From contig JAQUWH010000005.1 in NCBI GenBank assembly GCA_028692955.1, forward strand, positions 68,615-106,448: a stretch of DNA of 37,834 bases, in the 5' to 3' direction. The position numbers and the translations under genes were made by a program. This DNA comes from Clostridia bacterium. GTDB taxonomy: Bacteria; Bacillota; Clostridia; TANB77; CAG-465. A model generated the notes under the pieces. The model was not told where the DNA came from and did not search any database. It saw only the letters and a program-made list of their open reading frames with translations. Positions 6,601-34,959 of this stretch are shown here, in pieces; position 1 is the first letter of the stretch, and each line of letters begins with the position of its first letter.

Positions 6601-9537
6601 CTAGTTGTCATGTTGCCCTTCCATTACTTCAGCACATCTTGGACAAATATATCTATATTTTAAATCCCTACCTATATAGATAGAATATTGATGACACATC
6701 GCACACTGTACGCCCTCGTGTTTTGCCACCTCAACACTTTCTTCTTCAGCTTCCACTAGATTCAATTCAGAAATATTTAAGGATAAATAAACATCATCAA
6801 AATTGGCTTCTATAAATTCCTTTGTTTCTTGTTTTACATTTAGTGTAATAAAAGCTTCTAAACTATTTTTGATAATTTTATCATTTTTTGCTTTATTAAT
6901 AGATTTTTTAATCCAAGTAATAAGTTTAAATATTCTATCCCACTTTTCTGCCTCTTTAGTAATGTCTATTTCTTCCTTGATTAATTTTTGTCTGCATATT
7001 AAAATATTCTTTTCGTCACTTGCATCCTTATGCCATATATATTGCCACACTTCTTCTAATGTAAATGGAAGAATAGGTTCAAAAAACATAACAAGGTACA
7101 TTAGGATATCATACATAGTAGACTGTGTGCTTCTACGTTTCTTACTATCTTTTTTTAGAACATATAGTCTATACTTTATCACATCGAAATATTTTGCTGA
7201 AAGTTCAGATTTGCATAGTTTAGTTAATAATTCATAAACTTTCTTAAATTCCAAATTGTTGTAGGCGTTGTATATTTGAATATTAAATTTCATAGCAATT
7301 CCGTAAAAATAGCTATCAATATCTTTTCTATCTAATACATTCACATAGTCTTTTAGTGGATTAAAATCTGTAAGATTAGACAACAAAAACTTAAAAGTCT
7401 TTCTGATTGTTTTATACGCCTTATTGGTATTAATAATATAATGTTCATTCAACTTTATAGTATTTTCGTTTGATTTAGAAATAGCCCATAATCTTAAGAT
7501 ATCAGTACCATATTTTGAAGCAATCGTCTTTACCGCCTCTTCAGATTTCATTTCCTTTTCTTCTACTACATTGGCAACTTTTTTATCGATTTCTTTTTTC
7601 TTATTTTTGTTTTTATCTTTATTTTTCGTCTTATTTTCAGTATTGCTTTCTAGAAACTTTTCTTTATTTTCAGCTAGTTGCATATTTTCTTCAACATCAG
7701 AATGAATCATTGCTTTGTAGATGGTATTCATTTGTTCATCAAAAGAAGAAGCAAAGCTAAATCCTTTTAATTTTCTGTAAAAGCTAGTTTTACTTTCAAT
7801 TGCTATATCTTTGTAATTTTCGTCTTCATCAATCATATCCATTGACATATATTTAAAAAACTCATTTAAGTTTCCACTATCTTTAAATAAAAAAGTACAT
7901 CTGCATTTTGGGCATATCACTTGTCCTTTTAATATCTGTTCTGGGCTTTCCTTATACCAAGCTTCAATTCCTTTTTCTTTAAACAAATTTCCTATTAATT
8001 CATTGGTCATGTCACTTACAATTAATTCATTACACTGTGCACAATAGAATACAGGAATAGGGAGTCCTATACATTTGTTATTTGACACTACTACCTTTTC
8101 TTGTTGATTAATTTTTTTGATTTGCGCAACAAGTTCTTCTTTTTTATACTTTTCATTAGCGGTAATTCTGGAAAGAATATTGTCAAAATTCTCTTCCGAT
8201 ATTTTATTCTCTTTCATCAAATACCATTCCGGTATTATTCTATAGATCAATTCTTCTTGACATGTTTTACATTTTTGTATAGTAGTCTTGACGTTATTAG
8301 AATAATAAATAAAATTATTATCTTGTAAAAATTTTACAATCTTTTCTCCTACTTCTTTGTAATATGTATTATTATAAACTAAAGCAATAGGATTTGTTTT
8401 TCCATTTTCATCTAATGCACTGCGTATATTACCCATAGCAAAGTCCTTAAAAATAAGATAATCTAAATAAGTAGCACCAGACGATACAATTCTAATACCA
8501 CTTGTATTTTTTTCATCCACATAGATATATTCTCTAGGTGCTATTGTTACTTTCACTGTTTTTGTATAATTGAGTGGATTAGAGCATAGAATTCTTTTTA
8601 ATTTAATTGCTTCAAATTCCTCTAACACTACGTATTTAATATAAAAATTATATTGCATAAATTCTTCTACTTTATCACTAGCAAGTACAAAGAACTTCTT
8701 CGCTCCATTTTCAAATACTTGAACCAAGCTATATTTAGTATCTTCAGCTAATGCTATATTTTCACTAACAGTCATTGTCCATGGTGCAATGGTAGTAGCA
8801 ATAAAATATAGATTTTGCGGATTTCCATATTTTTCAAATAAATCATTTCTATCTCTTATAATTTTATATAGGATATAATAATTTTTCACTTTAATATCTT
8901 CATGAGTCATCTCGTTTTGTTCTAAAGGACTTTTACACTTGATGCACCAATGAACCGGTATTAACTTCCTATGCAATCTCCCCTGTTTGTATAAATGCAA
9001 GAAATTAGTGATAATTTTATTTTCATTTTCCGAATCTGACATTAATTTATAATGCCTTGTATAATTAATCACTGTCCCTAGATTATTGATTTCAACTAAT
9101 TGACGTCTTAGCTTATCAGCTAGCCTTTTTTTAGCCTCTTGCCTTTCTTTAAGACCACTTTGTATATCTGCTTTATTATTACCTATATCTTTTTCTTCTG
9201 CACTTTTTATATTATCTTCCAGTCCACTATCTGAAAATATAATCTTATCATCTACTATATTTCCACTCATAATTTGAAATCTTACAAAAATATCTTTTAA
9301 TATTTTATTTAATACAACCGTTGTATCAAGTACATTATCAACTTTGATAGGGCTATTATCTATTCTATATCGATTGCTAGATAACTTATTTTTTTCTAAT
9401 GCTTGTCTATATCTTGCTTCGTCTTGAATCTTTTCTAAAAAATACTCTTGTCTTTTCGGCAAATTACCATCTGTAGGTATCGTATTTTTAGGTAGATTCA
9501 TTATATCAGAATAGTCCTTATCTCCTTTTATTTTCAT
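6601..9537 (-). CDS. Isoleucyl-tRNA synthetase paralogue lacking catalytic motifs (pseudo-IleRS)
   Basis: The 978-residue protein follows IleRS end to end. The N-terminal signature is intact (MNLPKNTIPTDGNLPKRQ, residues 13-30), as is LNKILKDIFVRF (76-87), which in true IleRS directly follows HIGHA. Here the HIGH positions read DTTV (71-74). The editing domain keeps TTIAPWTM but its GTG-x-VH-x-AP motif is replaced by GIRIVSSGATYLD. GLPIPVFYCAQC and VICPKCRCTF follow, as in the family. The KMSKS loop is replaced by a Lys/Glu/Asn-rich stretch ending KEMKS, just before ASKYGTDILRLW. The anticodon-binding domain is recognisable (KTIRKTFKFLLSNLTDF), as is the C-terminal zinc finger CAMC...CPRC. 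So tRNA-binding parts remain while aminoacylation and editing residues are gone. ATG 9537 follows AAAAAGGTGATTAA. Probably an operon with the DUF402 gene. Role unknown. Confidence 0.85.
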   Translation of the reverse strand: MKIKGDKDYSDIMNLPKNTIPTDGNLPKRQEYFLEKIQDEARYRQALEKNKLSSNRYRIDNSPIKVDNVLDTTVVLNKILKDIFVRFQIMSGNIVDDKIIFSDSGLEDNIKSAEEKDIGNNKADIQSGLKERQEAKKRLADKLRRQLVEINNLGTVINYTRHYKLMSDSENENKIITNFLHLYKQGRLHRKLIPVHWCIKCKSPLEQNEMTHEDIKVKNYYILYKIIRDRNDLFEKYGNPQNLYFIATTIAPWTMTVSENIALAEDTKYSLVQVFENGAKKFFVLASDKVEEFMQYNFYIKYVVLEEFEAIKLKRILCSNPLNYTKTVKVTIAPREYIYVDEKNTSGIRIVSSGATYLDYLIFKDFAMGNIRSALDENGKTNPIALVYNNTYYKEVGEKIVKFLQDNNFIYYSNNVKTTIQKCKTCQEELIYRIIPEWYLMKENKISEENFDNILSRITANEKYKKEELVAQIKKINQQEKVVVSNNKCIGLPIPVFYCAQCNELIVSDMTNELIGNLFKEKGIEAWYKESPEQILKGQVICPKCRCTFLFKDSGNLNEFFKYMSMDMIDEDENYKDIAIESKTSFYRKLKGFSFASSFDEQMNTIYKAMIHSDVEENMQLAENKEKFLESNTENKTKNKDKNKNKKKEIDKKVANVVEEKEMKSEEAVKTIASKYGTDILRLWAISKSNENTIKLNEHYIINTNKAYKTIRKTFKFLLSNLTDFNPLKDYVNVLDRKDIDSYFYGIAMKFNIQIYNAYNNLEFKKVYELLTKLCKSELSAKYFDVIKYRLYVLKKDSKKRRSTQSTMYDILMYLVMFFEPILPFTLEEVWQYIWHKDASDEKNILICRQKLIKEEIDITKEAEKWDRIFKLITWIKKSINKAKNDKIIKNSLEAFITLNVKQETKEFIEANFDDVYLSLNISELNLVEAEEESVEVAKHEGVQCAMCHQYSIYIGRDLKYRYICPRCAEVMEGQHDN

Positions 9538-9610
9538 TTAATCACCTTTTTAATTATATTTTATTGTATCAAATAACAGGATTCTTTTCAATCATTTGCC
9601 AATATATTAC

Positions 9611-9691: not shown

Positions 9692-10009
9692 TTAGCTTAC
9701 CATTTGAGCGGTCACATTACGAGCAAGTTCTTCCAAGCGATCGGAGGCGTACCGCCTCACTCTTTCGTTTTGGCTCACTTCAGATAAATACAAAAGAATA
9801 TTCTGATCCGTTATTTTTAAGATGGAAATAATCTGCAATCTTGGTTCTTGAGAAGTAAGAGCTACTTGATTATGAAAACCAGTGTTTTGGATATTTCTTA
9901 ACGCTTTGATTTTTTGATTCAAGTTTCTCCCATCAGCATTGAACTCCCGAAATAAGAATCGGTCAAGCTCCATTTTTTCCTCACTATACTTGCTATTAAT
10001 TATTAGCAT
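9692..10009 (-). CDS. Hypothetical 105-residue helical protein, compositionally foreign
   Basis: I do not recognise this family. The product is almost entirely helical and charged (LDRFLFREFNADGRNLNQKI, LQIISILKITDQNILLYLSE, NERVRRYASDRLEELARN), with no signal peptide or membrane segment; the last part resembles a single HEAT-like helical pair, but one copy proves nothing. Its 3' portion is clearly richer in G+C (about half over the last 75 bases, by eye) than the AT-rich neighbours, and it has its own promoter and two hairpins, so it looks like an acquired single-gene unit. ATG 10009 follows GATGAGGTATTATT. It lies between the IleRS-like and DUF3298 genes without overlapping either. Confidence 0.6.
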   Translation of the reverse strand: MLIINSKYSEEKMELDRFLFREFNADGRNLNQKIKALRNIQNTGFHNQVALTSQEPRLQIISILKITDQNILLYLSEVSQNERVRRYASDRLEELARNVTAQMVS

Positions 10010-14392: not shown

Positions 14393-15100
14393 ATGTGTAA
14401 AAATATGGAATTAAAGGAAAATTATATTTTAAAAATTGGTATGTGTGATGATGAGTTAGGTAGTATCAAATCTTTTTCTAGCATGCTGGAATCTGCTATA
14501 GAAAAACAAGATTTAAATGCCAAAATTAGCTTAATAACTACAAACCAAAAGGAAATGTTTGATGCTGTGTTTAATAAGGAAATTGACATTCTTTTTTTAG
14601 ATGTAGACTTTAAAAATAATGGAAAAAATGGAATAGAATTTGCAGAAGACTTAAGAAATGTAAATAAAGAATTTTTTCTTGTATTTTTATCTGCTCATCA
14701 GCGATATATGCATGTATCTTTTTTCGTAAAGGTTTATGATTATATCGTTAAACCAGCAAATAAAGATGTAGTAGAACACCTAATAAAAAGATTAAAAGGC
14801 GAATTTGATTACAATAATAAATTATTCTTACATCTAAATAAATGGATAACAGTAAGAATAGATGATATTTTATATATTGAAAAACTAGGTAATAAATGTA
14901 ATATCATAACTACTTACAATACACAAAGCACCACTAAATCTCTTGAAACCTTATTAAATGAGTTGCCAAATTATTTTAGGAAATGCCATAGATCATATAT
15001 AGTGAATGAGAGAAAGATTTTAACGCTTGATAAAAAAGAAAAGTATGCTTTCTTCCCTAGGGGAATCAAGTGCCCCATCAATTCATATTTTGATCTATAA
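14393..15100 (+). CDS. AgrA-like LytTR-family response regulator
   Basis: Cytoplasmic DNA-binding response regulator expected to be phosphorylated by the adjacent AgrC-like kinase. The receiver domain occupies about residues 12-135: acidic pair D19-D20, phosphoacceptor D70 in ILFLD, and conserved K120 in DYIVKPA. A LytTR domain follows (about 140-235) with WITVRIDDILYIEKLGNK and LPNYFRKCHRSYIVN, including the FxRxHRSY-type motif. The receiver normally starts a few residues before the acidic pair, so residues 1-11 are an extension; ATG 14393 coincides with the predicted transcript start, and ATG 14405 is an alternative. It is followed 24 bp later by the kinase. Targets presumably include the agrBD promoter. 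Confidence 0.9.
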   Translation: MCKNMELKENYILKIGMCDDELGSIKSFSSMLESAIEKQDLNAKISLITTNQKEMFDAVFNKEIDILFLDVDFKNNGKNGIEFAEDLRNVNKEFFLVFLSAHQRYMHVSFFVKVYDYIVKPANKDVVEHLIKRLKGEFDYNNKLFLHLNKWITVRIDDILYIEKLGNKCNIITTYNTQSTTKSLETLLNELPNYFRKCHRSYIVNERKILTLDKKEKYAFFPRGIKCPINSYFDL

Positions 15101-15124
15101 TTTAAATTTACAAAGGAGCTTATT

Positions 15125-16453
15125 ATGGAAAATATATTAATTTTTATTTCAAATGTAGTTATACAAACATTTATGTGTGCTTATCCACTATATGGTATAA
15201 GTAAACTCTTAAAAAAGGAAGAGTATTCTAAAAAACAAATAATTTGGTTATGTATTATATCCGTGATAACCGTAACTATAATATTGCTCATAAAACAAGT
15301 GTCAAAAATAGCTAGCATGTTCACTAGTATAGTGGCTTTGTTTTTAATAGCACATTATATTTTAAAAAATACTTGGTTAAAATCGCTATTAATCGCAATT
15401 CTCGTTATCATTTATAATGGGATAACTGAAACACTTTGTTTCTTTATAGGAATGACATTATTAAAAAAAGAAGTAGTAGAAATAGCAACTCAACCTCTTT
15501 CATTAATAGCACTATCAATGTTACAATGTATTTTATCATTTATTATACTTGAACTTATACATTTTATAATCAACAAAAAAGCAAATATCAGTTATATGTT
15601 TGAGAATGTATCGTACAGACAAATTTTAGTATTTATTGGTGCTTTAACGCTTTGCATCTTTCCACAACTAATTATATTTGTATTAACAGCTTATTCATAT
15701 CCAGCTATATTTTTAATAGTAAACTCATTACAATTTATTATTATCTGTATATTCTTGTTTGTATATCTGAAGAAATCAGTTGAACATGAGAAAACACAAT
15801 CAGATTTATTTACCAGTGAACTACACAATAAAACGCTTGTGGGAATGGTTGATGGTGTTCGTACGTTAAAACATGATTACAACAATATCATGCAAGCTTT
15901 GAATGGATATGTTTCAACAAAACAATATGATAAGATACAAACTCATATTAATGGCGTATTAGACGAATGCAATATAGTTAATAATTTAGCAGTCATAGAT
16001 CCAAGCATATTTAATGATCCTGCTATCTATGGTATTGTAGGTTCCAAATTTTTCTTAGCAAACGAACAGAACTTACAATTTGATTTTGATATAGTAACTA
16101 ATATAGCAGAAATACAGTTTCCTATGCCTGATCTTTCAAGAATACTTGGCATATTACTAGATAATGCGATGGAAGCAACTAAAAAGTGTAGTAATCCTTT
16201 CATGAGATTAGAAATGAAATATGATAAGAGAAAATGTGCGGATATTATTCGTGTTGTAAACACTTATGATACTTCTATTCATATTGATTTAGATGAAATA
16301 TACAAGAAAGGCTTCTCAACAAAACAAGTAAAATCTGGTATTGGATTATGGGAAGTAAAAAAGCTAGTATCAAAAGTAAAAAATGCGCAAATATATGCTA
16401 CCATAGAAAGAGACAAATTTGTACAAAATATTATTATTGAAAAGGTAGATTAA
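15125..16453 (+). CDS. AgrC-like sensor histidine kinase
   Basis: Membrane receptor for the Agr autoinducing peptide. Six or seven hydrophobic helices occupy residues 1-216. A cytoplasmic kinase of the AgrC/GHKL type follows: dimerisation helix with TLKHDYNNIMQALNGYV (phosphoacceptor H250), N box LGILLDNAMEATKK (about 340-355), and glycine box SGIGLWEVKKLV. No canonical D/F box is needed in this class. Length (442) is typical of AgrC. ATG 15125 follows AAAGGAGCTTATT. It is co-transcribed with the regulator upstream and converges on the agrBD unit, which would supply its ligand. Confidence 0.92.
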   Translation: MENILIFISNVVIQTFMCAYPLYGISKLLKKEEYSKKQIIWLCIISVITVTIILLIKQVSKIASMFTSIVALFLIAHYILKNTWLKSLLIAILVIIYNGITETLCFFIGMTLLKKEVVEIATQPLSLIALSMLQCILSFIILELIHFIINKKANISYMFENVSYRQILVFIGALTLCIFPQLIIFVLTAYSYPAIFLIVNSLQFIIICIFLFVYLKKSVEHEKTQSDLFTSELHNKTLVGMVDGVRTLKHDYNNIMQALNGYVSTKQYDKIQTHINGVLDECNIVNNLAVIDPSIFNDPAIYGIVGSKFFLANEQNLQFDFDIVTNIAEIQFPMPDLSRILGILLDNAMEATKKCSNPFMRLEMKYDKRKCADIIRVVNTYDTSIHIDLDEIYKKGFSTKQVKSGIGLWEVKKLVSKVKNAQIYATIERDKFVQNIIIEKVD

Positions 16454-16464
16454 CAAGAGATTAA

Positions 16465-16497
16465 AATAGAGCCTACAAATGGCTCTATATTCTTGTG
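16465..16497 (+). terminator. Terminator of agrAC
   Basis: ATAGAGCC (16465-16472) pairs with GGCTCTAT (16480-16487) around a seven-base loop, followed by an imperfect T tract, 11 bases after the agrC stop. Confidence 0.65.
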
Positions 16498-16509
16498 TAT
16501 TAACAATGT

Positions 16510-16548
16510 AAAGAGTGAGTCCTACTCTCTTTTTAGAACTCACTCTTT
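16510..16548. terminator. Long hairpin between convergent agrC and agrD
   Basis: An 11-bp perfect inverted repeat, AAAGAGTGAGT / ACTCACTCTTT (16510-16520, 16538-16548). It lies 31 bases past the agrD stop and probably ends agrBD transcription, though the T tract on the minus strand is poor. Confidence 0.55.
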
Positions 16549-16578
16549 CGTTATATAACTATTTATTATTTAAATCAA

Positions 16579-16692
16579 TTACTTATCTATTAAGCATTTT
16601 GGTGCTTTTGGTTGATGCAAAAAAAGGCAAAAGCAGCTACTCGTTGAGCTTTTTGCATACTTTTCAACCATTCTCTTTAGTATCTTTTTCAA
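16579..16692 (-). CDS. agrD: AgrD-like cyclic autoinducing peptide precursor
   Basis: A 37-residue precursor starting at TTG 16692, eight bases after AAAGGAGG. It has the three AgrD parts: a basic amphipathic N-terminal helix (MKKILKRMVEKYAKSS), a central peptide core (TSSCFCLFL) and a C-terminal acceptor region HQPKAPKCLIDK. The latter matches the HQP-x-xPK-x-L tail of clostridial AgrD, such as the HQPEEPKSL of C. perfringens. AgrB would cleave near the core/tail boundary and form a Cys thiolactone. In C. perfringens the ring Cys is five residues before the His; here Cys occupy positions six and four before it, so the ring is ambiguous. It lies about 200 bp downstream of agrB on the same strand and converges on agrAC. 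Confidence 0.85.
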   Translation of the reverse strand: MKKILKRMVEKYAKSSTSSCFCLFLHQPKAPKCLIDK

Positions 16693-16897
16693 TTTTCTTC
16701 CCTCCTTTTGTTTTTTAATCAATATATAAATTATACCATTACGCTATTGGTAAACCATTCAATTTATTTTTCTTCAAAAAATATAAACTATACGACATAA
16801 ATATATAATCTTTGATTATATTAAAATGAACATTTATATATTGATTATTATCTATATAATATGAATAATATTTTTATTATATTATCCAAATTATATA

Positions 16898-17527
16898 CTA
16901 GGTGTTGTAATATTGTTTGAATTCTTCAGATTCATAACTATGTTTACATTTAAAGAATTTATATGCTACATTAGTTGCTGCCAAATTGATAAACAATATT
17001 GTAAATAAAATTATATTTGCTATCATTTTATCTTTTATCATAAAAACTGACACAAAATATAAAAGTAAAAATGATATAGAAGCAAATATTTTTAATCTCT
17101 TTCTTTTATTTTTCTTTAAGATCGGAATTTCTTCTGTATCTGCAGGTGCAATTTTTAATATGATATAGATTGAGCTTATCAATACTGCTGCATGCAGAAA
17201 ATATATTCCTATCGTATTAAATTCTATGTACTTTGATATTAGAACTGGTGCAAGAAATATGATTATTGATGATATAAAACAAATAATGTTTGTTCTTGCA
17301 TGGGCACCTCCAACAAAGGTTTTGTACGCAATAGTGACGGCTAACACAATTCCTACTAATGGTAATATATTTAAGAATAAACTAATAAAAAAGATTGTCA
17401 AATATTTTGGTATATCCTCTAATATTCTAGTTATTCCAAAACACATTATCTCTCGTTCGTCTCCTATGACTTGTTCACCTTTATATAGAAATTTGTCTAT
17501 AATATATTCACTCATTTTTTCGACCAT
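16898..17527 (-). CDS. agrB: AgrB-like peptide-processing membrane protease
   Basis: Integral membrane cysteine endopeptidase that trims the AgrD C-terminus and forms the thiolactone ring. The catalytic pair is present: H76 in FVGGAHARTN and C83 in IICF, the same spacing as H77/C84 of S. aureus AgrB. Five or six hydrophobic helices cover residues 40-195; the N-terminal amphipathic region holds GEQVIGDEREIMCFGI, as usual in the family. Length (209) is typical. ATG 17527 has a weak ribosome binding site (GGTGGTAGAAA), and the ATG four codons further is possible. A TATAAT-like -10 lies at 17553-17548 on the minus strand without a good -35, as expected for an activator-dependent promoter. Confidence 0.93.
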   Translation of the reverse strand: MVEKMSEYIIDKFLYKGEQVIGDEREIMCFGITRILEDIPKYLTIFFISLFLNILPLVGIVLAVTIAYKTFVGGAHARTNIICFISSIIIFLAPVLISKYIEFNTIGIYFLHAAVLISSIYIILKIAPADTEEIPILKKNKRKRLKIFASISFLLLYFVSVFMIKDKMIANIILFTILFINLAATNVAYKFFKCKHSYESEEFKQYYNT

Positions 17528-25902: not shown

Positions 25903-25960
25903 TGGTGGGAATGACCGGAATCGAACCGGTACGCCTTTTGACGGGCGCAGGATTTTAAGT
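25903..25960 (-). pseudogene. Orphaned 3' half of the chromosomal tRNA-Leu(UAA) gene (attL)
   Basis: Reads, on the minus strand, from the anticodon loop through the variable arm, T arm, acceptor 3' strand and encoded CCA (25905-25903), matching the complete tRNA-Leu at 34665-34753 except in the variable arm. Here that arm is CGCC-loop-GGCG; in the complete copy it is CGAC-loop-GTCG. There is no 5' half on the other side: the sequence switches to element DNA after GATTTTAAGT (25951-25960). No product can be made from this fragment. Confidence 0.9.
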
Positions 25961-25989
25961 TTTAAACGTGATTTAGTATTTATCATTTT

Positions 25990-26170
25990 TTAGTGTTACT
26001 TAACACTACTTAAAAATGTTGATATAGATAGCTATTGTACTACTTTTTATTATCAAATATTGATATATAAATAACCATCAAGTATTACAATATTTTAGTA
26101 GTTTCAAAATAAATTGTTAGAACAATGTTAGAACTTTTGGCAAAGTAACAGATAATTTGCCATTTGATAA
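25990..26170. repeat. Left-end region with direct repeats (putative integrase arm sites) and small hairpins
   Basis: No gene here. TAGTGTTA/TAACACTA (25991-26008) is an 8-bp palindrome. The motif TTGTTAGAACA (26114-26124) and its near copy TGTTAGAACTTTTG (26126-26139) recur at the other end of the element as TGTTAGAACTTT (34620-34631) and TGTTAGAACTTTTG (34799-34812). Repeats shared by both ends, outside the core, are what arm-type binding sites of a tyrosine integrase with an N-terminal arm-binding domain look like. Confidence 0.6.
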
Positions 26171-26209
26171 AACTATCTTAACTTGAAAAAGTTAGGGTAG
26201 TTATTTTTT
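26171..26209 (+). terminator. Intrinsic terminator or attenuator immediately upstream of the replication initiator gene
   Basis: 14-pair stem (26171-26184 with 26189-26202, three G-U pairs, four-base loop) followed by ATTTTTT, ending seven bases before the AAAGGAG of the initiator gene. Read-through would be needed to express the gene from any upstream promoter. Confidence 0.65.
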
Positions 26210-26227
26210 GGCTTGAAAGGAGTCAAA

Positions 26228-27139
26228 ATGCCAAACGTAAACATTAATAATATAAAAAACTATTTGTTCTACAAATTACCAAAATGTATTTTAGAGAATG
26301 AGCCATATAAAACAAAGTTAAGTTCGACATCTAAAATTGCCTATATGCTTGTATTAAATAGATTAAGTTTATCTATTAGTAACAGATGGGTAGATTCAAA
26401 AGGTGATGTCTTTATCTATTATTCAAGACAAGAGTTACAAAACGATATACCTACTAGCAAAAAAACTGCTATAAGTGTATTTAAACAACTAGAAGAATTA
26501 AACTTGATACACCAATGTGAACAAGGAAAAGGGCTTGCATATAAAATATATGTTGAAGATGTATTTACACAAGTTTATGAGAAGAAAAAAGTAGTAGAAA
26601 ATTTACCCAATACTAGTGTAAAAACTACACCACCACTGGTGGAAAAATTACACCCAAATAAGAATAAAGAAAATAAGAATGAAAATCATAATTCTTCTAG
26701 TATAGAGTTAGACAAAATAAAGGACAAATGTCTACTTAAAGATTTTAGCAAAACAATTTTAAAAACAGGAGTATCAATTGGTAGTTTATTAAATGCTACT
26801 ATTGATACTCTTTATTATTTGCCTGTACTTACCATAGATAATAAAGATTATAACAATACTGAAATACGTACCATGTTAGGTGGAATAAATGAACAGCACT
26901 TACAAAAGGTTGAAAGTATATTTCTTACTAATTATGAAAATGTAAGAAATTATAAATCATATTTAATTACTTGTGTTGCTAATGTACTACTAGGTAAAGA
27001 TATACCAAGAAACATGATAACATTTTCTAAAAAATATGTTAGTAATTACAAAGGCAGAGAATACACAGAAGAATTTATGGAGAGTCTATATGACAATTTA
27101 GACTCTCACGAAGAGGAATCACAGGAGTTAGAACTGTGA
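26228..27139 (+). CDS. RepA_N-family replication initiator
   Basis: Plasmid-type replication initiator on an integrated element. The N-terminal domain (residues 10-110) has the RepA_N signature: FYKLPKCILE, LSSTSKIAYMLVLNRLSLSISNRWVDSKGDVFIYYSRQELQ, TSKKTAISVFKQLEELNLIHQ. A short low-complexity linker follows (NKNKENKNENHNSSS), then a C-terminal host-specific domain (about 155-303) with no recognised motif. ATG 26228 has GGAG five bases upstream; a TTG at 26213 overlaps the ribosome binding site and is not a start. A terminator-like hairpin stands just before it. The downstream gap holds oriT. It could support autonomous replication of the excised circle. Confidence 0.85.
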   Translation: MPNVNINNIKNYLFYKLPKCILENEPYKTKLSSTSKIAYMLVLNRLSLSISNRWVDSKGDVFIYYSRQELQNDIPTSKKTAISVFKQLEELNLIHQCEQGKGLAYKIYVEDVFTQVYEKKKVVENLPNTSVKTTPPLVEKLHPNKNKENKNENHNSSSIELDKIKDKCLLKDFSKTILKTGVSIGSLLNATIDTLYYLPVLTIDNKDYNNTEIRTMLGGINEQHLQKVESIFLTNYENVRNYKSYLITCVANVLLGKDIPRNMITFSKKYVSNYKGREYTEEFMESLYDNLDSHEEESQELEL

Positions 27140-27193
27140 TTCTTCTTTATCTACAAAAATAAATTTGCGGTAGCATTTTTATTTTTTGTAGCA

Positions 27194-27217
27194 ATATATT
27201 TTGGTTACAAAATATAT
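27194..27217 (+). terminator. AT-rich hairpin after the replication initiator gene
   Basis: 10-bp perfect stem ATATATTTTG/CAAAATATAT with loop GTTA, followed by ATTTATC. A weak terminator or part of the origin region. Confidence 0.45.
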
Positions 27218-27253
27218 ATTTATCAATTTGTGCATAGCACTTATTGATAAAAA

Positions 27254-27318
27254 GGGTGCAGGAACTCCTGCCACCGATACACTTTTGTAAAAAGTGTTGT
27301 AGTGTGTTACAACACTTT
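27254..27318 (+). other. Origin of transfer (oriT) of the pMV158/MobV type
   Basis: Immediately upstream of the MobV relaxase gene lie overlapping inverted repeats: ACACTTTT/AAAAGTGT (27279-27297, loop GTA) and AAAGTGTTGTA/TACAACACTTT (27291-27318) with GTGTGT in the loop. The latter contains TAGTGTG/TTA, identical to the nick region I recall for pMV158, predicting cleavage between 27306 and 27307 on the plus strand. The two hairpins share an arm and exclude one another, as in the pMV158 oriT. A further GC-rich stem GGTGCAGGA/TCCTGCCACC (27255-27275) precedes them. Confidence 0.8.
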
Positions 27319-27368
27319 AACTTAAGCAGAGAAAAGTGTCATTTGAAAAAAACAAGGAGTGATGAAAA

Positions 27369-28475
27369 ATGAGTTATGCTATTATACGAAATGAGAAATA
27401 CAAAAGAGATAATTTAAAAGGAATATATCGCCATAATGAAAGAAAAAATACCAACTATTCCAATAAAAATATTGATAAAACAAGAACATATTTAAACTAT
27501 GCTATCAAGCAAAGTAACAATAGTTATGAAAAAGAATTTGATAGATTAAAAGAACAAAATAACCTAAAAGGGCAAATAAAAGATGTTAGTAATATAGTAT
27601 GTGAATATATCATCACATCTGACATTGATTTTTTCAGAAATATAGGTTTAGAAGAAACAAAGAGATATTTTCAAGAGTCATATAATTTTGTTTGTGAGTA
27701 TAAAGGACTTGGTGAAGAAAATATATTATCTGCAAATATACATTTAGATGAAGAAACACCACATATGCACCTAACTTTTATACCTGTTGTATCTTCTATT
27801 GATAAAAAAGGTAATGAAATAAGAAAAGTTGCTTGTAGTGAGTTTTGGAAAGAAAGAGATAGTTATAGAATACTACAAGATAATTATTATAACTATATCA
27901 CTAGTAAAGGTTTTGATTTACAAAGGGGACAACCATCAGAAACAAAACATATTTCTATGGAAGATTACAAGAAAGCCACTAACTTTCACAAAGTAAAAGA
28001 TTTAACTGATATACAAATTAAACAACCTAGTATAAAAGATATTAGCCAAATTAAAAAAATAACTATTGATAGAGATACTAAAATAGAAGATGAAATTATC
28101 ACTCCACTCAAGGCTCAAAATTCCATTTTAAAGGAACAAAATATCAAACTTGTAAAAGAACTCACCAAAGTAGAAAATATCGTAAATAAGGCTGATATGT
28201 GTGTTTTAGAAAATAAAGAACTAAATAAGAAAAATAGAGAATTGAAACTCGAAAATAAGACATTACGAAAAGAAAATCACAAACTTTATGATATTTTAGA
28301 TACTGCAAAAGATATTATCCTTACAATATGCAGATGGGTTGCTAGAAAACTTAATCTTACCATTGACAGGACTATTGATACTATTGAAATAGAAAATAAC
28401 ATTTGTATTGAGCCATCAGAACAAATTCAAAAGCAAAAGTATGAAAAAGAATTGGAACAAGAAATTGAGATGTGA
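27369..28475 (+). CDS. MobV-family relaxase (Mob/Pre)
   Basis: DNA-nicking transfer protein that would cut oriT and pilot the strand through a helper's conjugation channel. The N-terminal relaxase domain shows motif I (RHNERKN, residues 21-27, with H22) and motif III HLDEETPHMHLTFIP (H125, D127, E128, H132, H134), the HxDExxPHxH metal/catalytic signature of MobV. After residue 205 the protein is a long coiled coil (about 225-310, heptad-like Leu/Lys/Glu) and a charged tail. Length (368) is typical. ATG 27369 follows AAGGAGTGATGAAAA. The oriT lies in the preceding 230 bp. Confidence 0.93.
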   Translation: MSYAIIRNEKYKRDNLKGIYRHNERKNTNYSNKNIDKTRTYLNYAIKQSNNSYEKEFDRLKEQNNLKGQIKDVSNIVCEYIITSDIDFFRNIGLEETKRYFQESYNFVCEYKGLGEENILSANIHLDEETPHMHLTFIPVVSSIDKKGNEIRKVACSEFWKERDSYRILQDNYYNYITSKGFDLQRGQPSETKHISMEDYKKATNFHKVKDLTDIQIKQPSIKDISQIKKITIDRDTKIEDEIITPLKAQNSILKEQNIKLVKELTKVENIVNKADMCVLENKELNKKNRELKLENKTLRKENHKLYDILDTAKDIILTICRWVARKLNLTIDRTIDTIEIENNICIEPSEQIQKQKYEKELEQEIEM

Positions 28476-28508
28476 AAGACCACTTACAAATTAGTAAGTG
28501 GTTTTCAC
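28472..28508. terminator. Bidirectional terminator between the relaxase gene and the GNAT gene
   Basis: GTGAAAGACCACTTAC pairs with GTAAGTGGTTTTCAC (one bulged base, six-base loop), overlapping both stop codons of the convergent genes. Confidence 0.75.
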
Positions 28509-28958
28509 ATTCATAACATACGACTCTTTGCCATGTTCAACAAATCCGAATTTTAAAAGGAAATTTTGTGCTTGATTGTTTTTCGGAAGAACAAAACAAT
28601 GAATAAAGTCTATTTGCTTTTTCCTGGCATGTTCTAGGACTTTTTCGATTAATAGTTTTCCAACACATTTGCCTTGATATTCCTTTAACACAAATATCTC
28701 TGTTACACAAAGACAAGTATCACTGATTTCAACATAATCTTCTTCATACTTTGTATCTGCATATGCGATAATCGTATTACCATCAACTACGACAAAAAGC
28801 GGATTATCTTCATCAGAATCATATTCATTGTAAAAAATATGTCCTTCAGAAAATTTGTAACCAACTGTATATTCGTCCATTTGCTTTAAAAATTCTTTTT
28901 GTAGGGTAACAAACCTTTCGCTATCTTCTATCCGAAGTTCCCTAATTAAAAACTCCAT
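28491..28958 (-). CDS. GNAT-family N-acetyltransferase
   Basis: A 155-residue acetyl-CoA-dependent acyltransferase. The fold is complete: N-terminal IRELRIEDSERFVTLQKEFL, strand 4 with CLCVTEIFVLKEYQGKCVGKLLIEKVLEHARKK (the QGKCVGK loop binds the acetyl-CoA pyrophosphate), and IHCFVLPKNNQAQNFLLKFGFVEHGKESYVM (strand 5, helix 4 and the terminal strands). The acceptor is unknown; family members acetylate aminoglycosides, proteins, toxins or small amines. It is convergent to the relaxase gene within the mobile element and lacks a partner antitoxin gene of the DUF1778 or RHH kind, so a toxin role is not suggested. Confidence 0.88.
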   Translation of the reverse strand: MEFLIRELRIEDSERFVTLQKEFLKQMDEYTVGYKFSEGHIFYNEYDSDEDNPLFVVVDGNTIIAYADTKYEEDYVEISDTCLCVTEIFVLKEYQGKCVGKLLIEKVLEHARKKQIDFIHCFVLPKNNQAQNFLLKFGFVEHGKESYVMNVKTTY

Positions 28959-29062
28959 GTCTGACCCTCCATAATATAATTGGTATAATATAAACTTAAT
29001 ATGTTCTTATTATACCATTATTTTACTGTAATTTCAATAATTATGTAAATTATAGCCTTAAA

Positions 29063-29335
29063 TTATAATATTATTTGTCCATGTGTTATTTCAATAGCCT
29101 TACATCTTATCATATTTTCATATCTAACATCATCAAAATAATTGTTATCATTAGGTGGTAAATAATTCTTTCTTAACTGCTTTTCAACTAATTCTAGCAT
29201 ATCTTTTATTTCAATCTCTTTATAATCTAAATAACTATCAATAGCACCATTTATTATTAATTCATGGTACTTAATAGGATTACTTTTCCTTAATTCTTGT
29301 TTAATTAAATAATGATAAATGCTACCTTTTGACAC
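29063..29335 (-). CDS. Hypothetical 90-residue element protein
   Basis: Not recognised. A small soluble, mostly helical protein starting MSKGSIYHYLIKQELRKSNPI, with IKDMLELVEKQLRKNYLPPNDNNYFDDVRYENMIRCKAIEI towards the end. It lies two bases after the stop of the 108-residue gene on the same strand, so the two form one unit opposite the XRE regulator gene. Its ribosome binding site (TAGGAGTGAGTAA) is inside the upstream gene's end. Small acidic/basic helical proteins at this place in mobilizable elements are usually accessory regulators; nothing here proves it. Confidence 0.6.
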   Translation of the reverse strand: MSKGSIYHYLIKQELRKSNPIKYHELIINGAIDSYLDYKEIEIKDMLELVEKQLRKNYLPPNDNNYFDDVRYENMIRCKAIEITHGQIIL

Positions 29336-29337
29336 AT

Positions 29338-29664
29338 TTACTCACTCCTAAAACATTCTAACAATAAACATATTCCATCTCGTATGCCATCTTTATAATA
29401 CAAGTCATTTAAAAGTGCATTTCTACAAGTACAAGTTTCTTCATATTCGTTTACTAAATCTTTTATTACATCTTGCTTATCACTAGGTACACACTCTTTG
29501 TTACTAGTTAAAAAATTATTATAATCTTGCTTAATCTCATCTGCATAATTATCATAATATTGTTTTTCTTTGTGACTCATATATGGTAAATTACCATCAA
29601 GAGCAGTAACTAACTTATCAAGCATATTACTTTTATTACTAATATCTATTGATATATTTCTCAT
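29338..29664 (-). CDS. Hypothetical 108-residue element protein
   Basis: Not recognised. The sequence is helical and acidic, with a Cys cluster (YEETCTCRNALLNDLYYKDGI) and a C-terminal helix (RDGICLLLECFRSE). LDKLVTALDGNLPYMSHKEKQYYDNYADEIKQDY has a helical-bundle look. Divergent from the XRE-like regulator across an 80-110 bp AT-rich gap, which may hold the operator for both. Co-directional and tightly packed with the 90-residue gene. Confidence 0.6.
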   Translation of the reverse strand: MRNISIDISNKSNMLDKLVTALDGNLPYMSHKEKQYYDNYADEIKQDYNNFLTSNKECVPSDKQDVIKDLVNEYEETCTCRNALLNDLYYKDGIRDGICLLLECFRSE

Positions 29665-29775
29665 AATCTACCCCCATTTTTTAGCATTATATATCATTTT
29701 ATATCGTTTGCCAACTAGTAATCGTTAATAAATAATATCATAGTAGTGTATAATATACTAAAAGGTGTGATAATA

Positions 29776-30015
29776 GTGAGATTGAGCGATGCAATGAAAA
29801 AAAGAGTTCTACAACTCTGTGATGAAAGAAATATAACCATCAATAAAATGTGTACTATTTGTGGTATTACACAATCTACATTAGGCTCATTTTATAATGC
29901 AGAAAATAGTGTCTTAAAAGTTAGAGTTATCTACAATATTTGTAATGGATTAGGTATTACTCTAAAAGATTTTTTTGATACTGATTTATTTATAGATTTA
30001 GATGAAGAAGATTAG
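29776..30015 (+). CDS. XRE-family (Cro/C1-type) regulator
   Basis: A 79-residue single-domain helix-turn-helix protein: MKKRVLQLCDERNITINKMCTICGITQSTLGSFYNAENSVLKVRVIYNICNGLGITLKDFFD matches the HTH_3/HTH_26 pattern, with recognition helix TQSTLGSFYNA. The frame opens at GTG 29746, but that segment contains a TATAAT (29749-29754) and no ribosome binding site; GTG 29776, eight bases after AAAGGTG, is the likely start. It probably controls the divergent small genes and/or the element's excision functions. Confidence 0.85.
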   Translation: MRLSDAMKKRVLQLCDERNITINKMCTICGITQSTLGSFYNAENSVLKVRVIYNICNGLGITLKDFFDTDLFIDLDEED

Positions 30016-30037
30016 CCAAAATTGACTAATCTTTTTT
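30009..30037 (+). terminator. Terminator of the XRE regulator gene
   Basis: AGATTAG/CTAATCT stem (ten-base loop) followed by TTTTTATC; the left arm includes the stop codon region. Confidence 0.75.
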
Positions 30038-30072
30038 ATCTAAATTTCCTTAAAGTTTTTTTATTATTTTAA

Positions 30073-30696
30073 CTAGAAAATAATATCAATATTATTTTTC
30101 TTCAACCAATTATTTATTATCTCCATATTTTGTTCAAAAGATTTTCTAAAATCTTCATAATCTTGATATTCAGTAACAGGAACTACTTTTCCATTTTTTT
30201 CTTTGGTATAGCTAAATTGAATAACCATATTTTCTTTTTCCATATCCGAATATTCAATAATATTCATACCACAATTTAAGATAAAATTGATACATTTTTT
30301 TATATCATCTGGCATCCAAATACTATTTAATAATTCTTTAAGCTTTACAGAAAAAGTTAAGTAGGTTTGATGGTCAAAATATACTTTGTATTTTTCCATT
30401 CCATAAATGCAAGGCATCTTTTCTTTCCCAAAGTTTATATAGCCTTTATAAAGTTTTCCATTGGCACTAGTAGGTATATTATTAGTTCCTACCATTAGCA
30501 TTGTTCTTTTTTTAAGAAAATTTAAAATATCAAATACAGAGTCAATTCTATTAGACTTCACCTTTCCTTTTATACCATATCTATCATATAAAGCAAACGC
30601 TATTATGGCAGTCAATATAGTGCATAAGCAGGAAATTACCGAAAAAATAAAATTCCAATTATCTATGCTTGTTAAAAAATTTATAATCTCTCTCAT
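30073..30696 (-). CDS. Hypothetical membrane-anchored protein of the element cargo
   Basis: Not recognised. The 207-residue product has one N-terminal hydrophobic segment (about residues 14-37: FIFSVISCLCTILTAIIAFAL) followed by a basic stretch and a soluble, probably cytoplasmic domain of about 160 residues (KLYKGYINFGKEKMPCIYGMEKYKVYFDHQTYLTFSVKL..., ending WLKKNNIDIIF). An upstream extension starts with TTG and overlaps the ribosome binding site; ATG 30696 follows GAGGTAAAT and is preferred. It comes 25 bp after the hydrolase gene and is the last gene of the three-gene cargo. Confidence 0.6.
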   Translation of the reverse strand: MREIINFLTSIDNWNFIFSVISCLCTILTAIIAFALYDRYGIKGKVKSNRIDSVFDILNFLKKRTMLMVGTNNIPTSANGKLYKGYINFGKEKMPCIYGMEKYKVYFDHQTYLTFSVKLKELLNSIWMPDDIKKCINFILNCGMNIIEYSDMEKENMVIQFSYTKEKNGKVVPVTEYQDYEDFRKSFEQNMEIINNWLKKNNIDIIF

Positions 30697-30721
30697 ATTT
30701 ACCTCATACAATTACTTTAAT

Positions 30722-31282
30722 TTATATTTTTTTATTAATAATTTCTAATACCTTTGGTATTTCAACAACATTGCTTTTCTTACCCATATGTCCTATGCCT
30801 TTAATTAGCATAGGAATACCATCAATGGCAACTGGGTATCTTTCTAATACATCAAATGGCACTATATGGTCATCATTGCTATATATACAATATTTCTTTT
30901 CTACTTGTTCTTTAAAGTTATTGATTTCTTGTTCAGATATTTCAAAATCCTTAACTGCATTGTATAAATCTTCTCTACCATCAATTTTATATACATCAGA
31001 AAAGCCTGCAAGACTAATATACAATTTAATATTTAATTGATTTTCGTGTAAATACTTAACAATTAATCTATTTCCTATCGAGTGTCCTATCACTATTAAC
31101 TCATCAGTTAACTCATCTTTGTAATTATCTAGTATATCTTTCCACAAATGATACCTTGCATTTTCTTGTACTGGAAATTCAGGTACTATAACTTGATACC
31201 CTTTATTTGTTAATTCATCTCTTAACCACTCAAATACTTTTGGTACTCCATTGTACCCATGTAATAATAAAACTTTACTCAT
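30722..31282 (-). CDS. RBBP9/YdeN-family serine hydrolase
   Basis: A 186-residue alpha/beta hydrolase. The oxyanion/N-terminal motif is LLLHGYNG (residues 5-12), the nucleophile elbow GHSIG (S68), the acid in YSNDDHIVP (D137 or D138), and the base H165 in KGIGHMGKKS, the usual RBBP9 triad. Size and order match the RBBP9/YdeN family, whose substrates are mostly unknown. It is the middle gene of a minus-strand cargo trio: DUF6076-like, hydrolase, membrane protein, with 15 and 25 bp gaps. Confidence 0.88.
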   Translation of the reverse strand: MSKVLLLHGYNGVPKVFEWLRDELTNKGYQVIVPEFPVQENARYHLWKDILDNYKDELTDELIVIGHSIGNRLIVKYLHENQLNIKLYISLAGFSDVYKIDGREDLYNAVKDFEISEQEINNFKEQVEKKYCIYSNDDHIVPFDVLERYPVAIDGIPMLIKGIGHMGKKSNVVEIPKVLEIINKKI

Positions 31283-31297
31283 AATAATCCTACCTTT

Positions 31298-32431
31298 CTA
31301 TTCTTCAAATATTCCTTTGTCTTTTACAGCAAGTAACCATTTTTTAAAATCTTCTTCTGTTTTAGTTTCATCTTTCATCTCTTGTCTAATTTCTTTAACC
31401 CTTTGCTTAAACCATTCAAATTCTTCCTTGTATTGTTGATTTTTAGGATTTCTTTGCATTCTTAAAAACTTTTGTTGATAAGCATTACGATATAACCTAT
31501 CTATGCTATTTTCATCTTGTAATTTCTTCTTTCTAAATAACTGTGAGCCAATTTGTCTACAAGTAAGTCCATCTTGATATACATTGTTGCAATAGATTTC
31601 ATCAGTTCTTTTTTGTGGTACAAAGTATTTACCACAGTTTTGGCATTTCTTAATAGGAAAGTCTTTCATAGCAATAAGTTCAACTAAAGAGATATACAAG
31701 ATACTAGCAAAGCTCGTACTAGATATGAAATATGGGGATTGTATTAGTTCCTTCTTTTTATCTTTTCTAGTAATACCTATTTGCTCATATATATACTTTT
31801 CTTTTGGTCCTGCTGGCGCTACTAATAGCCAGTTTGCATTTGTTTCAAAATCTAGTTCAAGTTTATCAGAATACTTTTCTATGGCATTTGTCATTCTACT
31901 AATTGATAGAGTATAGTATCTTTCATATGGTGTAAAATGTTCTATCTCTTTTAAATCATACAAGTTATACACATAATCAACAACTCTAATAAAATCACTC
32001 TTTACCTTTTCTATATCTTGAACATAATTGTCAAAGATATATTGTATTAACTCATCATATTCCTGTTTAGAATACATTTCTTTTAGTTCTATTTTCATAT
32101 TACACATATTAGTTAAAACATACAGTCCAAACATTTCTGCATATTCTTTTAATTCATCAATATTACCAAAGTCAGTATTTAAAAAATTAGTTAGATAAGT
32201 TCCAGCAACTTCAATACTGTACTTTCTTTCAGTTCTAACATAAAATAAATTATCATCATTAGTTACATATTGATTACATTTAGGAAATTTTTTTATCTCA
32301 TCTTTTGTATAAAACATATCAACTTTGTTTAAAACTATCTTATATTTTTTTACATACCTATGGTGAGTAATATACTCAAGTCGATTGTTTTTATCTACAT
32401 ATATACTGATTGGTAGTATTTCGTTATTCAT
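31298..32431 (-). CDS. DUF6076-like zinc-finger protein
   Basis: A 377-residue protein. A helical N-terminal two thirds (for example VDYVYNLYDLKEIEHFTPYERYYTLSISRM) is followed by a zinc-binding knuckle, KKCQNCGKYFVPQKRTDEIYCNN...TCRQIG, with Cys at 263, 266, 281 and 291, then a basic helical tail with KFLRMQRNPKNQQYKEEFEWFKQRV. This CGK-type zinc ribbon followed by CRQIG occurs in uncharacterised DUF6076-like proteins of Firmicutes mobile elements; some related proteins are thought to bind nucleic acids. It has the longest upstream gap (220 bp) and leads the cargo unit. Function unknown. Confidence 0.65.
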   Translation of the reverse strand: MNNEILPISIYVDKNNRLEYITHHRYVKKYKIVLNKVDMFYTKDEIKKFPKCNQYVTNDDNLFYVRTERKYSIEVAGTYLTNFLNTDFGNIDELKEYAEMFGLYVLTNMCNMKIELKEMYSKQEYDELIQYIFDNYVQDIEKVKSDFIRVVDYVYNLYDLKEIEHFTPYERYYTLSISRMTNAIEKYSDKLELDFETNANWLLVAPAGPKEKYIYEQIGITRKDKKKELIQSPYFISSTSFASILYISLVELIAMKDFPIKKCQNCGKYFVPQKRTDEIYCNNVYQDGLTCRQIGSQLFRKKKLQDENSIDRLYRNAYQQKFLRMQRNPKNQQYKEEFEWFKQRVKEIRQEMKDETKTEEDFKKWLLAVKDKGIFEE

Positions 32432-32510
32432 CTACATCATCCTTTTTTAAACTTATTTATTCTCTTTTAAAATAACATGTTAGTATTTTATAAAATTATA
32501 ACATATACTA

Positions 32511-32539
32511 TTGACATTTGCAAGTGGTTTATGTATAAT
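32511..32539 (+). promoter_or_regulatory. Consensus SigA promoter for the HTH-xis-int operon
   Basis: TTGACA (32511-32516), 17-bp spacer, TATAAT (32534-32539). The predicted leader of about 105 bases contains the inverted repeat ACAATGTA/TACATTGT (32570-32600) and a GTAATA/TATTAC repeat, candidate operators or attenuator elements. Confidence 0.8.
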
Positions 32540-32650
32540 ATTGTTAGTAATATATAATATTATTACAATGTATTATCCAGTAAATAGTACATTGTTTCAC
32601 TATATTCATTATTTGATAACAAATAGTTAACTAAAAGAAAGGGGGATTAA

Positions 32651-33100
32651 ATGAGTAAAAAAATTATGATTCTTGATATGTTCTATAACAATCATTTAAA
32701 GCAAATTGAAATTGCAAAAGAATTAAATGTATCAAAAGCATATGTAACAAAGATAATTAAATGTGATAGTAGATATACTACTGAAAAAAATACTAGAAAA
32801 GAAGATAATGTATTTAACAGAAGATTATATTTATATAACTATTTAAAAGATTACAGAGCAAAGAAAAAAGAAGATAAACAACTTGATGAATTTGTAAAAA
32901 AACAACATGAACAAGCAAGTTATGAATTATCTGCAAAACCACATATTTCAAAAACTAGTTTAAGGAAATCTTGTGGTAGTATTTATGACTATAACAGTAA
33001 AACAAATAGTTTCCATGTTAAGAAAAATATATGTGTGTCTTTTGATATGCCTAGAACTATCAATATGAATAAGAAAATTTTAATAAGAGAAAAGGGGTGA
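32651..33100 (+). CDS. HTH DNA-binding protein of the element
   Basis: A 149-residue protein whose first 40 residues form a sigma-70 region-4-like or resolvase-like helix-turn-helix: MILDMFYNNHLKQIEIAKELNVSKAYVTKIIKCDSRY. The rest is basic and helical (YLYNYLKDYRAKKKEDKQLDEFVKKQHEQ), ending in a predicted beta-rich stretch. ATG 32651 follows GAAAGGGGGATTAA. It is the first gene after the strong promoter and precedes the Xis-like gene by six bases, so it probably regulates excision or integrase expression. Confidence 0.75.
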   Translation: MSKKIMILDMFYNNHLKQIEIAKELNVSKAYVTKIIKCDSRYTTEKNTRKEDNVFNRRLYLYNYLKDYRAKKKEDKQLDEFVKKQHEQASYELSAKPHISKTSLRKSCGSIYDYNSKTNSFHVKKNICVSFDMPRTINMNKKILIREKG

Positions 33101-33106
33101 TAACTT

Positions 33107-33316
33107 ATGAGAAATATTGAAAATATATATAATGTCATGTTTCATGATTATCCTGATATTGTTAATCTAAAACAAATGATGGAAATGTTAGGTGGTATAA
33201 GTTCTACACTAGCATACAAGATACTAAAGTCAAATACAGTAGGAAGTATTAAGGTAGGTAGAGAGTATAAAATACCAAAGGTAAATATTATTTCATATAT
33301 CATAGCAAATAATTGA
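33107..33316 (+). CDS. Excisionase-like small HTH protein (MerR/HTH_17 type)
   Basis: A 69-residue winged-helix protein: IVNLKQMMEMLGGISSTLAYKILKSNTVGSIKVGREYKIPKVNIISYI has the LxxxxEMLG-S---AY-LI--G-I---KVGR-YRI pattern of HTH_17 excisionases. Starts at ATG 33107 with AAAAGGGGTGATAACTT. Directly before the integrase gene, where Xis proteins of tyrosine-integrase elements usually sit. A 15-bp perfect inverted repeat begins over its stop codon. Confidence 0.8.
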   Translation: MRNIENIYNVMFHDYPDIVNLKQMMEMLGGISSTLAYKILKSNTVGSIKVGREYKIPKVNIISYIIANN

Positions 33317-33338
33317 ATAGTTGATTTGCTATGATATA
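33296..33338. promoter_or_regulatory. 15-bp perfect inverted repeat between the xis-like gene and the integrase gene
   Basis: TATATCATAGCAAAT (33296-33310) and ATTTGCTATGATATA (33324-33338) with a 13-base loop spanning the xis stop. It may be a partial terminator that lowers integrase expression or an operator; no T tract of note follows. Confidence 0.6.
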
Positions 33339-33393
33339 ATTCTATCTATCAATGGTAAATTAAATTTAAACTGTTATTTGAGAAAGGAGTAAA

Positions 33394-34602: not shown

Positions 34603-34646
34603 CTTGTTTTTTGATAAAGTGTTAGAACTTTATTTATATATTTATG

Positions 34647-34780
34647 TAACATATGTCATTCCTTTGGTGGGAATGACCGGAATCGAACCGGTACGACTTT
34701 TAAGGGTCGCAGGATTTTAAGTCCTGTGCGTCTGCCAGTTCCGCCACACTCCCATAAGTATTTTGGAATGACATATGTTA
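34647..34780. repeat. 16-bp perfect inverted repeat bracketing the complete tRNA-Leu
   Basis: TAACATATGTCATTCC (34647-34662) and GGAATGACATATGTTA (34765-34780) flank the tRNA at 2 and 11 bases. In the precursor RNA the leader and trailer can pair, extending the acceptor stem into a long helix; on DNA it could bound a tRNA cassette or bind a recombinase. Confidence 0.8.
34665..34753 (-). tRNA. tRNA-Leu(UAA), complete copy inside the element
   Basis: Cloverleaf: acceptor GGGAGTG/CATTCCC, anticodon stem CAGGA/TCCTG with loop CTTAAAA (anticodon TAA at 34719-34717), a long class-II variable arm (CGAC/GTCG), T arm with GGTTCGATTCC, A73 and an encoded CCA (34667-34665). Length is 89 nt with CCA. 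Its variable arm differs by a compensatory pair from the orphaned chromosomal 3' half. No strong promoter lies directly before it, but the consensus promoter of the old chromosomal gene lies upstream at 34988-34960 and can read through. Confidence 0.95.
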
Positions 34781-34902: not shown

Positions 34903-34943
34903 GATTTTAAGTCCTGTGCGTCTGCCAGTTCCGCCACACTCCC
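34903..34943 (-). pseudogene. Orphaned 5' half of the chromosomal tRNA-Leu(UAA) gene (attR)
   Basis: Reads from G1 (34943) through the D arm and anticodon stem into the loop, ending at the core GATTTTAAGT. It is identical over about 43 bp to the 5' half of the complete tRNA at 34713-34755. Past the core the sequence becomes element DNA (CTACGTTAAA on the plus strand), so the tRNA cannot be completed. Confidence 0.9.
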
Positions 34944-34959
34944 ATATATAACAATAGTA

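Follow-up and report, generated by a model that had tools for sequence, protein, structure and literature searches.

Synthetase paralogues usually keep the catalytic core, as is the case of PoxA, YadB and SbzA, or only part of the protein. HisZ, a bacterial HisRS paralogue with no charging activity, is used as the regulatory subunit of HisG; it responds to histidine, is devoid of the tRNA-binding end and works together with HisG. Among class Ia synthetases, LeuRS-I of Sulfolobaceae and LeuRS2 of Halobacteria are duplicates that bind tRNA and have lost, or nearly lost, charging, and an animal mitochondrial class II synthetase duplicate has lost charging and gained a regulatory role (PMC9437257). 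For IleRS, a 2022 review of synthetase duplications gives only IleRS2 and SbzA, the latter being the IleRS-like aminoacyl transferase of SB-203208 biosynthesis, a full-length IleRS copy that exists beside the housekeeping enzyme (PMC6331615).

The window, meaning the whole stretch of 37,834 nucleotides that was analysed, contains a gene for what seems to be a further synthetase paralogue with a new role; in the open-access literature searched, we found no inactive IleRS paralogue described. Its product shares with bacterial IleRS1 (TIGR00392; S. aureus 1QU2/1QU3 and Priestia megaterium 8C9E) the domain order, the predicted fold, the zinc-site cysteines, the anticodon-binding bundle and the C-terminal CxxC...CxxC finger, but all aminoacylation residues and most editing residues are gone, and it scores 264.8 bits (E 1.6e-78) with TIGR00392, the NCBIfam ileS model, below the 621.4-bit cut-off. 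It is, like SbzA, a full-length copy accompanied by a housekeeping IleRS; however, SbzA has HIGH and KMSKS motifs and a biosynthetic cluster, whereas the paralogue has neither and its neighbours are housekeeping genes. LeuRS-I and LeuRS2 are archaeal and derive from another synthetase, and LeuRS-I still makes leucyl-adenylate, while the adenylate site of the paralogue appears erased. The mitochondrial duplicate acts with the real SerRS, whereas one carrier of the paralogue is devoid of the parental IleRS1 type.

The first-pass annotation had compared the gene to PoxA-type, GCN2-like and HisZ proteins, parallels that do not extend to the details. PoxA keeps its catalytic core and the paralogue does not; a GCN2-like sensor needs a fused signalling domain, and only tRNA-synt_1 (96 bits) and Anticodon_1 (64 bits) are above the Pfam cut-offs in the paralogue. 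HisZ differs in that the paralogue lost the amino-acid site and kept the tRNA end, and in that ilvC, with no match over the cut-off in the 36 genomes of the family, is missing, leaving no usual isoleucine pathway for the paralogue to regulate. A HisZ-like control of isoleucine synthesis is thus not supported.

The paralogous gene and its expression signals

6601..9537, minus strand: coding sequence of the apparently catalytically dead, full-length IleRS1 paralogue, 978 amino acids, ATG at 9537 and stop at 6601
9541..9548, minus strand: ribosome binding site, AAGGTGAT
9563..9591, minus strand: predicted extended -10 sigma-A-type promoter, TTGAAA-17-TACAAT, with TG preceding the -10

The open reading frame of 978 codons, read from the window on the minus strand, is intact and is preceded by a ribosome binding site, as had been claimed at first pass with the strand unstated. 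For ten paralogues of the window's genus the upstream DNA was read, and all but that of G014 have the pattern TTGAAW-N14-TGNTAYAAT 49-78 bases before the start (nine of ten, with 0.001 expected over all ten); it is also present in the copies of this genus that moved to other loci. In its sigma-A form, the predicted promoter is strong and of the vegetative type. No T-box or other Rfam leader reached the gathering score upstream of the paralogue or of ileS, in the window and five loci, and the leader of the paralogue is short, leaving no room for a T-box. Directly upstream (9692-10009), we observed an open reading frame of 105 amino acids with its own TTGACA-17-TACAAT site, with no Pfam match and no relatives in the corresponding loci of neighbouring genomes.

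Loss of the catalytic and editing sites

9316..9327, minus strand: HIGH position, now DTTV (residues 71-74)
8467..8499, minus strand: editing-motif position, where GTGxVHTAPGHGxED has become GIRIVSSGATY (residues 347-357), followed by LDY
7540..7683, minus strand: KMSKS loop position, now a K/N/E-rich segment of low complexity and poor conservation

The replacements described at first pass, DTTV, GIRIVSSGATY and KEMKS (approximately residues 659-663, closing the K/N/E-rich insert), as well as the C-terminal CAMC...CPRC, are all found in the window paralogue, from which GWDTHG, DVWFDSG and GNDQYRG are also gone. Alignment of the paralogues with 22 genuine IleRS1 and E. coli IleS bore out that the catalytic and post-transfer-editing residues have been erased. 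The first histidine of HIGH is present in 22/22 genuine enzymes and in none of the 12 paralogues having that part; all five positions of KMSKS are kept in 22/22 genuine enzymes, and no paralogue keeps the motif. In E. coli numbering, the equivalents of T243 and H333 are each retained in 0/13 paralogues, with an arginine at the T243 position in six of them, and that of D342 is an aspartate in 11/13, including the window paralogue, and a glutamate in 2/13. HXGH is present in all IleRS1 examined, and even its swap to GXHH abolishes product formation by IleRS1 (PMC10485003), while T243R/D342A is the standard post-transfer-editing-dead mutant (PMC9023258). From the motif loss and these published results, we strongly infer that the paralogue is devoid of aminoacylation chemistry and of canonical editing.

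The genuine ileS, whose absence would have suggested misread motifs according to the first-pass annotation, was found in the window's genome (G000; 1.25 Mb, 97.7% complete). It is a single intact IleRS1 gene on another contig (G000:C6, approximately 145989-148769, minus strand), whose product carries PPYANGDIHAGH, GWDTHGLPIE, GTGCVHTAPGHGHED, DVWFDSG, GNDQYRGWF and KMSKS. Neither tRNA-Ile(GAU) nor tRNA-Ala turned up when the tRNAs of this draft assembly were read; since both are usually located within rRNA operons, the tRNA-Ile gene content is uninformative.

Conserved scaffold and selection

8935..8946, minus strand: zinc site 1, first pair (C198/C201), invariant in paralogues
8260..8271, minus strand: zinc site 1, second pair (C423/C426), invariant in paralogues
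8032..8043, minus strand: zinc site 2, C499/C502, invariant in paralogues
7903..7914, minus strand: zinc site 2, C542/C545, invariant in paralogues
6850..7302, minus strand: anticodon-binding helical bundle (Pfam Anticodon_1), residues 746-896
7174-7176, minus strand: K788, equivalent of E. coli K732
6634..6705, minus strand: C-terminal zinc finger CAMC...CPRC, residues 945-968 (Cys 945/948/965/968)

All 12 zinc cysteines are kept in the paralogues, and K788 is kept in 13/13, its E. coli equivalent K732 being, according to older mutagenesis of the E. coli enzyme, a tRNA-binding determinant. No paralogue retains the tryptophan that is invariant in the C-terminal finger of genuine IleRS1 (E. coli W905). 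Its loss, with which canonical reading of the anticodon may have disappeared, weakens the putative link to tRNA-Ile.

According to the AlphaFold2 model (12-row alignment; mean pLDDT 80, pTM 0.73), the whole IleRS1 fold is retained, with the K/N/E-rich insert of the KMSKS region predicted to be disordered (pLDDT mostly <50). Among solved structures, those of the Priestia megaterium and S. aureus IleRS1 are nearest to the window paralogue, and with the model both Foldseek (E 1e-53) and VIA-align ranked IleRS1 structures first. The structure overlay proposed at first pass matched the IleRS1 fold over approximately 850 residues: VIA-align gave Z 30.9 and rmsd 8.7 over 843 residues with S. aureus 1QU3, and Z 29.7 and rmsd 8.0 over 862 residues with Priestia megaterium 8C9E. 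Paralogues range from 910 to 1010 residues; in G011 (L044:2822-6790) we also observed a C-terminal extension of approximately 340 residues, acidic, Asn/Glu-rich and probably disordered.

The dN/dS of the closest paralogue pair (78% identity) is 0.07, a rough value as synonymous sites are near saturation, and that of the genuine ileS of the same genomes is 0.075; other close pairs gave 0.19-0.24. These values indicate purifying selection on the paralogue, in agreement with the earlier claim of a gene under selection rather than in decay, and the combination of a clade absent from relatives with a high dN/dS was not observed. The window paralogue is only 35-42% identical to most members of its own genus, showing that the paralogue evolves much faster than IleRS1. 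One frameshift, either real or an assembly error, is present near codon 54 in the G001 assembly, and the reading frame is fully open in the remaining complete members, at approximately 40% identity.

The distribution of constraint is inverted relative to the genuine enzyme. The 322 columns that are invariant in genuine IleRS1 are retained best, on average, in the C-terminal region (60%) and the anticodon domain (47%) of the paralogues, and far less in the active-site halves (21-25%) and the KMSKS loop (9%). Within the paralogues, the catalytic/CP1 part is the less conserved (identity 0.345, against 0.416 for the anticodon/C-terminal part), whereas in IleRS1 of the same genomes it is the more conserved (0.783 versus 0.680; interaction 0.17, block-bootstrap interval 0.11-0.25). 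In addition, the net charge shifts from -4.7 in IleRS1 to +5.1 in the paralogue for the anticodon bundle, and from -9.1 to +2.6 for CP1. Constraint inversion and basic shift would fit a protein selected for RNA binding and not for catalysis.

Distribution and origin

A paralogue profile identified carriers in 13 of the 36 genomes of the family: 11 of the 28 genomes of the window's genus and two of a second, sister genus. Searches outside the family, restricted to high-score matches (E limits of 1e-180/1e-190), retrieved no paralogue from 350 genomes belonging to the order's other families, and none outside the window's genus among 391 genomes sampled across the class; one contig search returned only the 78% relative. 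Mis-assembly or contamination was rejected, given the conserved synteny of the gene in many genomes.

The phylogeny suggested at first pass recovered a conserved, monophyletic group: in a maximum-likelihood tree of 13 paralogues and 22 genuine IleRS1, the paralogues form one clade (support 100) with a stem of 2.07 substitutions per site. The clade is nested among the IleRS1 of the family, with 90% support for an attachment point at which long branches meet, and one duplication of the IleRS1 native to the family, in an ancestor of the two sister genera, is thus its most likely source. On the rpoB tree, the pattern of presence needs four changes and fits one gain before the split of the genera followed by four losses, in G033, in a 13-genome clade (12 genomes with IleRS2, one with no IleRS found), in G002/G024 and in G019; G000, G004, G009, G018, G023 and G031 are off this tree, their rpoB being missing, fragmented or not fetched. 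About four losses indicate a dispensable role and, thus, an accessory function.

Canonical IleRS is present in 34 of the 36 genomes, being absent from G005 and G008. Since G005, which has no paralogue, also misses IleRS, we treated the absence in G008 as an assembly gap, and both cases are probably gaps of this type. The rpoB tree suggests three replacements of IleRS1 by IleRS2 in the family; we also noticed two size classes of ValRS within one genus (approximately 812-829 and 870-883 amino acids).

Possible functions of the paralogue

With the reactive sites destroyed and the scaffold and tRNA-gripping end under selection, the paralogue is probably an RNA-binding protein. We regard as moderately probable that it is a neofunctionalised pseudo-synthetase, most likely binding tRNA or another RNA, a reading that adds binding and regulation, as what we infer, to the single origin, motif loss, selection, predicted fold and promoter. 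A single duplication of IleRS1 would have taken place before the two sister genera of this Clostridia family split, and the duplicate would have lost the isoleucine/ATP chemistry and canonical editing and retained the entire IleRS scaffold. Its anticodon/C-terminal half would bind tRNA, most likely tRNA-Ile and less surely other RNA, with no charging, and the protein may act as a holder, competitor or sensor of the bound RNA in growing cells. More tentatively, and with some doubt, the paralogues might represent a bacterial family of full-length class Ia pseudo-synthetases, the first of its kind, sensing or holding tRNA and coupling amino-acid supply or RNA state to an output, for example by responding to uncharged tRNA-Ile in these ilvC-lacking and presumably isoleucine-importing bacteria.

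A free-standing deacylase, in which a remodelled CP1 hydrolyses mischarged or correctly charged tRNA-Ile in trans and the core serves as scaffold, seems improbable. The retained aspartate or glutamate at the D342 position, the amino-acid anchor in editing, and a new CP1 motif common to the paralogues, TGIRIVSSGxTYLDYLIxKE, would suit such an enzyme, as would the loss in all paralogues of H333, which prevents hydrolysis of cognate Ile-tRNA (PMC9023258). Nevertheless, nothing else is left of GTGxVHTAPGHG, T243 has given way to other residues, often to the arginine of the editing-dead mutant, and CP1 is no better conserved within the paralogues than the catalytic part (34% versus 33-35%).

Somewhat less probable still is a SLIMP-like partner or chaperone in complex with the housekeeping IleRS1, a role that whole-scaffold retention and the presence of IleRS1 in 11/13 carriers would fit. 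However, G016 keeps the paralogue with IleRS2 only, which rejects a strict dependence on IleRS1, eight genomes with IleRS1 have no paralogue, and on the rpoB tree few independent events underlie the loose association. In G016 (L045, L059), the paralogue adjoins prfA, a few genes downstream of apparent sepF and divIVA (identified by eye), a region that is often the neighbourhood of ileS in Firmicutes.

Gene neighbourhood offers no conserved partner gene and differs between the two carrier genera. The window's genus usually has agrC-agrA, followed by yqfC-yqfD-ybeY-dgkA-cdd-DUF3298-[paralogue]-dacF-cpaB, with probable Tad-pilus genes beside dacF, and in genomes without the paralogue its place is occupied by other, mostly short, genes. 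In the second genus, rsgA and rpe lie upstream and the paralogue is flanked by a DUF362 gene on one side and scpB-addB on the other; in G011 and G016 it is found elsewhere. A spore-stage regulator, proposed at first pass, is not supported, given the vegetative-type promoter and the retention of the gene in G011 (99% complete), which is without YqfD and SpoIVA; moreover, approximately 20 genomes with SpoIVA have no paralogue. In G029 YqfD is present and no SpoIVA was seen.

An SbzA-like transferase, moving isoleucine from Ile-tRNA-Ile onto a small molecule, is disfavoured and very unlikely: SbzA is likewise a full-length IleRS copy, but it keeps slightly changed HIGH and KMSKS motifs and its active site, as modelled, accommodates the substrate, whereas the paralogue has none of these and lies in no biosynthetic cluster in either of its neighbourhoods (yqfC-yqfD-ybeY-dgkA-cdd, dacF and the probable Tad-pilus genes, or rsgA-rpe-scpB-addB). 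Equally disfavoured is a decaying, functionless duplicate, for which fast divergence, several losses and the G001 frameshift could speak, against dN/dS of 0.07-0.24, full frames in the other complete members, conserved cysteines and promoter, and a single ancient origin.

As a pseudo-synthetase that binds RNA, the paralogue would be a natural separation of tRNA recognition from catalysis, i.e., a complete class Ia synthetase with erased reaction centres and selected zinc sites, RNA-binding end and promoter, and a testable case of a synthetase turning into an RNA-binding regulator. Such genes may be automatically annotated as isoleucine--tRNA ligases.

Other features of the window

An agr-type system is encoded at 14393-17527, with an AgrA-like LytTR regulator, an AgrC-like kinase and AgrB, and the AgrD peptide may be encoded by a 47-amino-acid open reading frame (16579-16722, minus strand) that contains KSSTSSCFCLFLHQPKAPK. 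Much of the family conserves the agrC/agrA pair adjoining yqfC.

The region 25903-34753 is likely an integrated mobilisable element, coding for a RepA_N protein (26213-27139), a Mob_Pre relaxase (27369-28475), a DUF6076 protein and a tyrosine integrase (33394-34602). It is flanked by 58-nt direct repeats (25903-25960 and 34665-34722, 93%) that correspond to the 3' part of tRNA-Leu(TAA). An exact 44-nt repeat of the tRNA-Leu 5' part (34713-34756 and 34903-34946, 190 bases apart) may be left over from an earlier insertion or tRNA copy.
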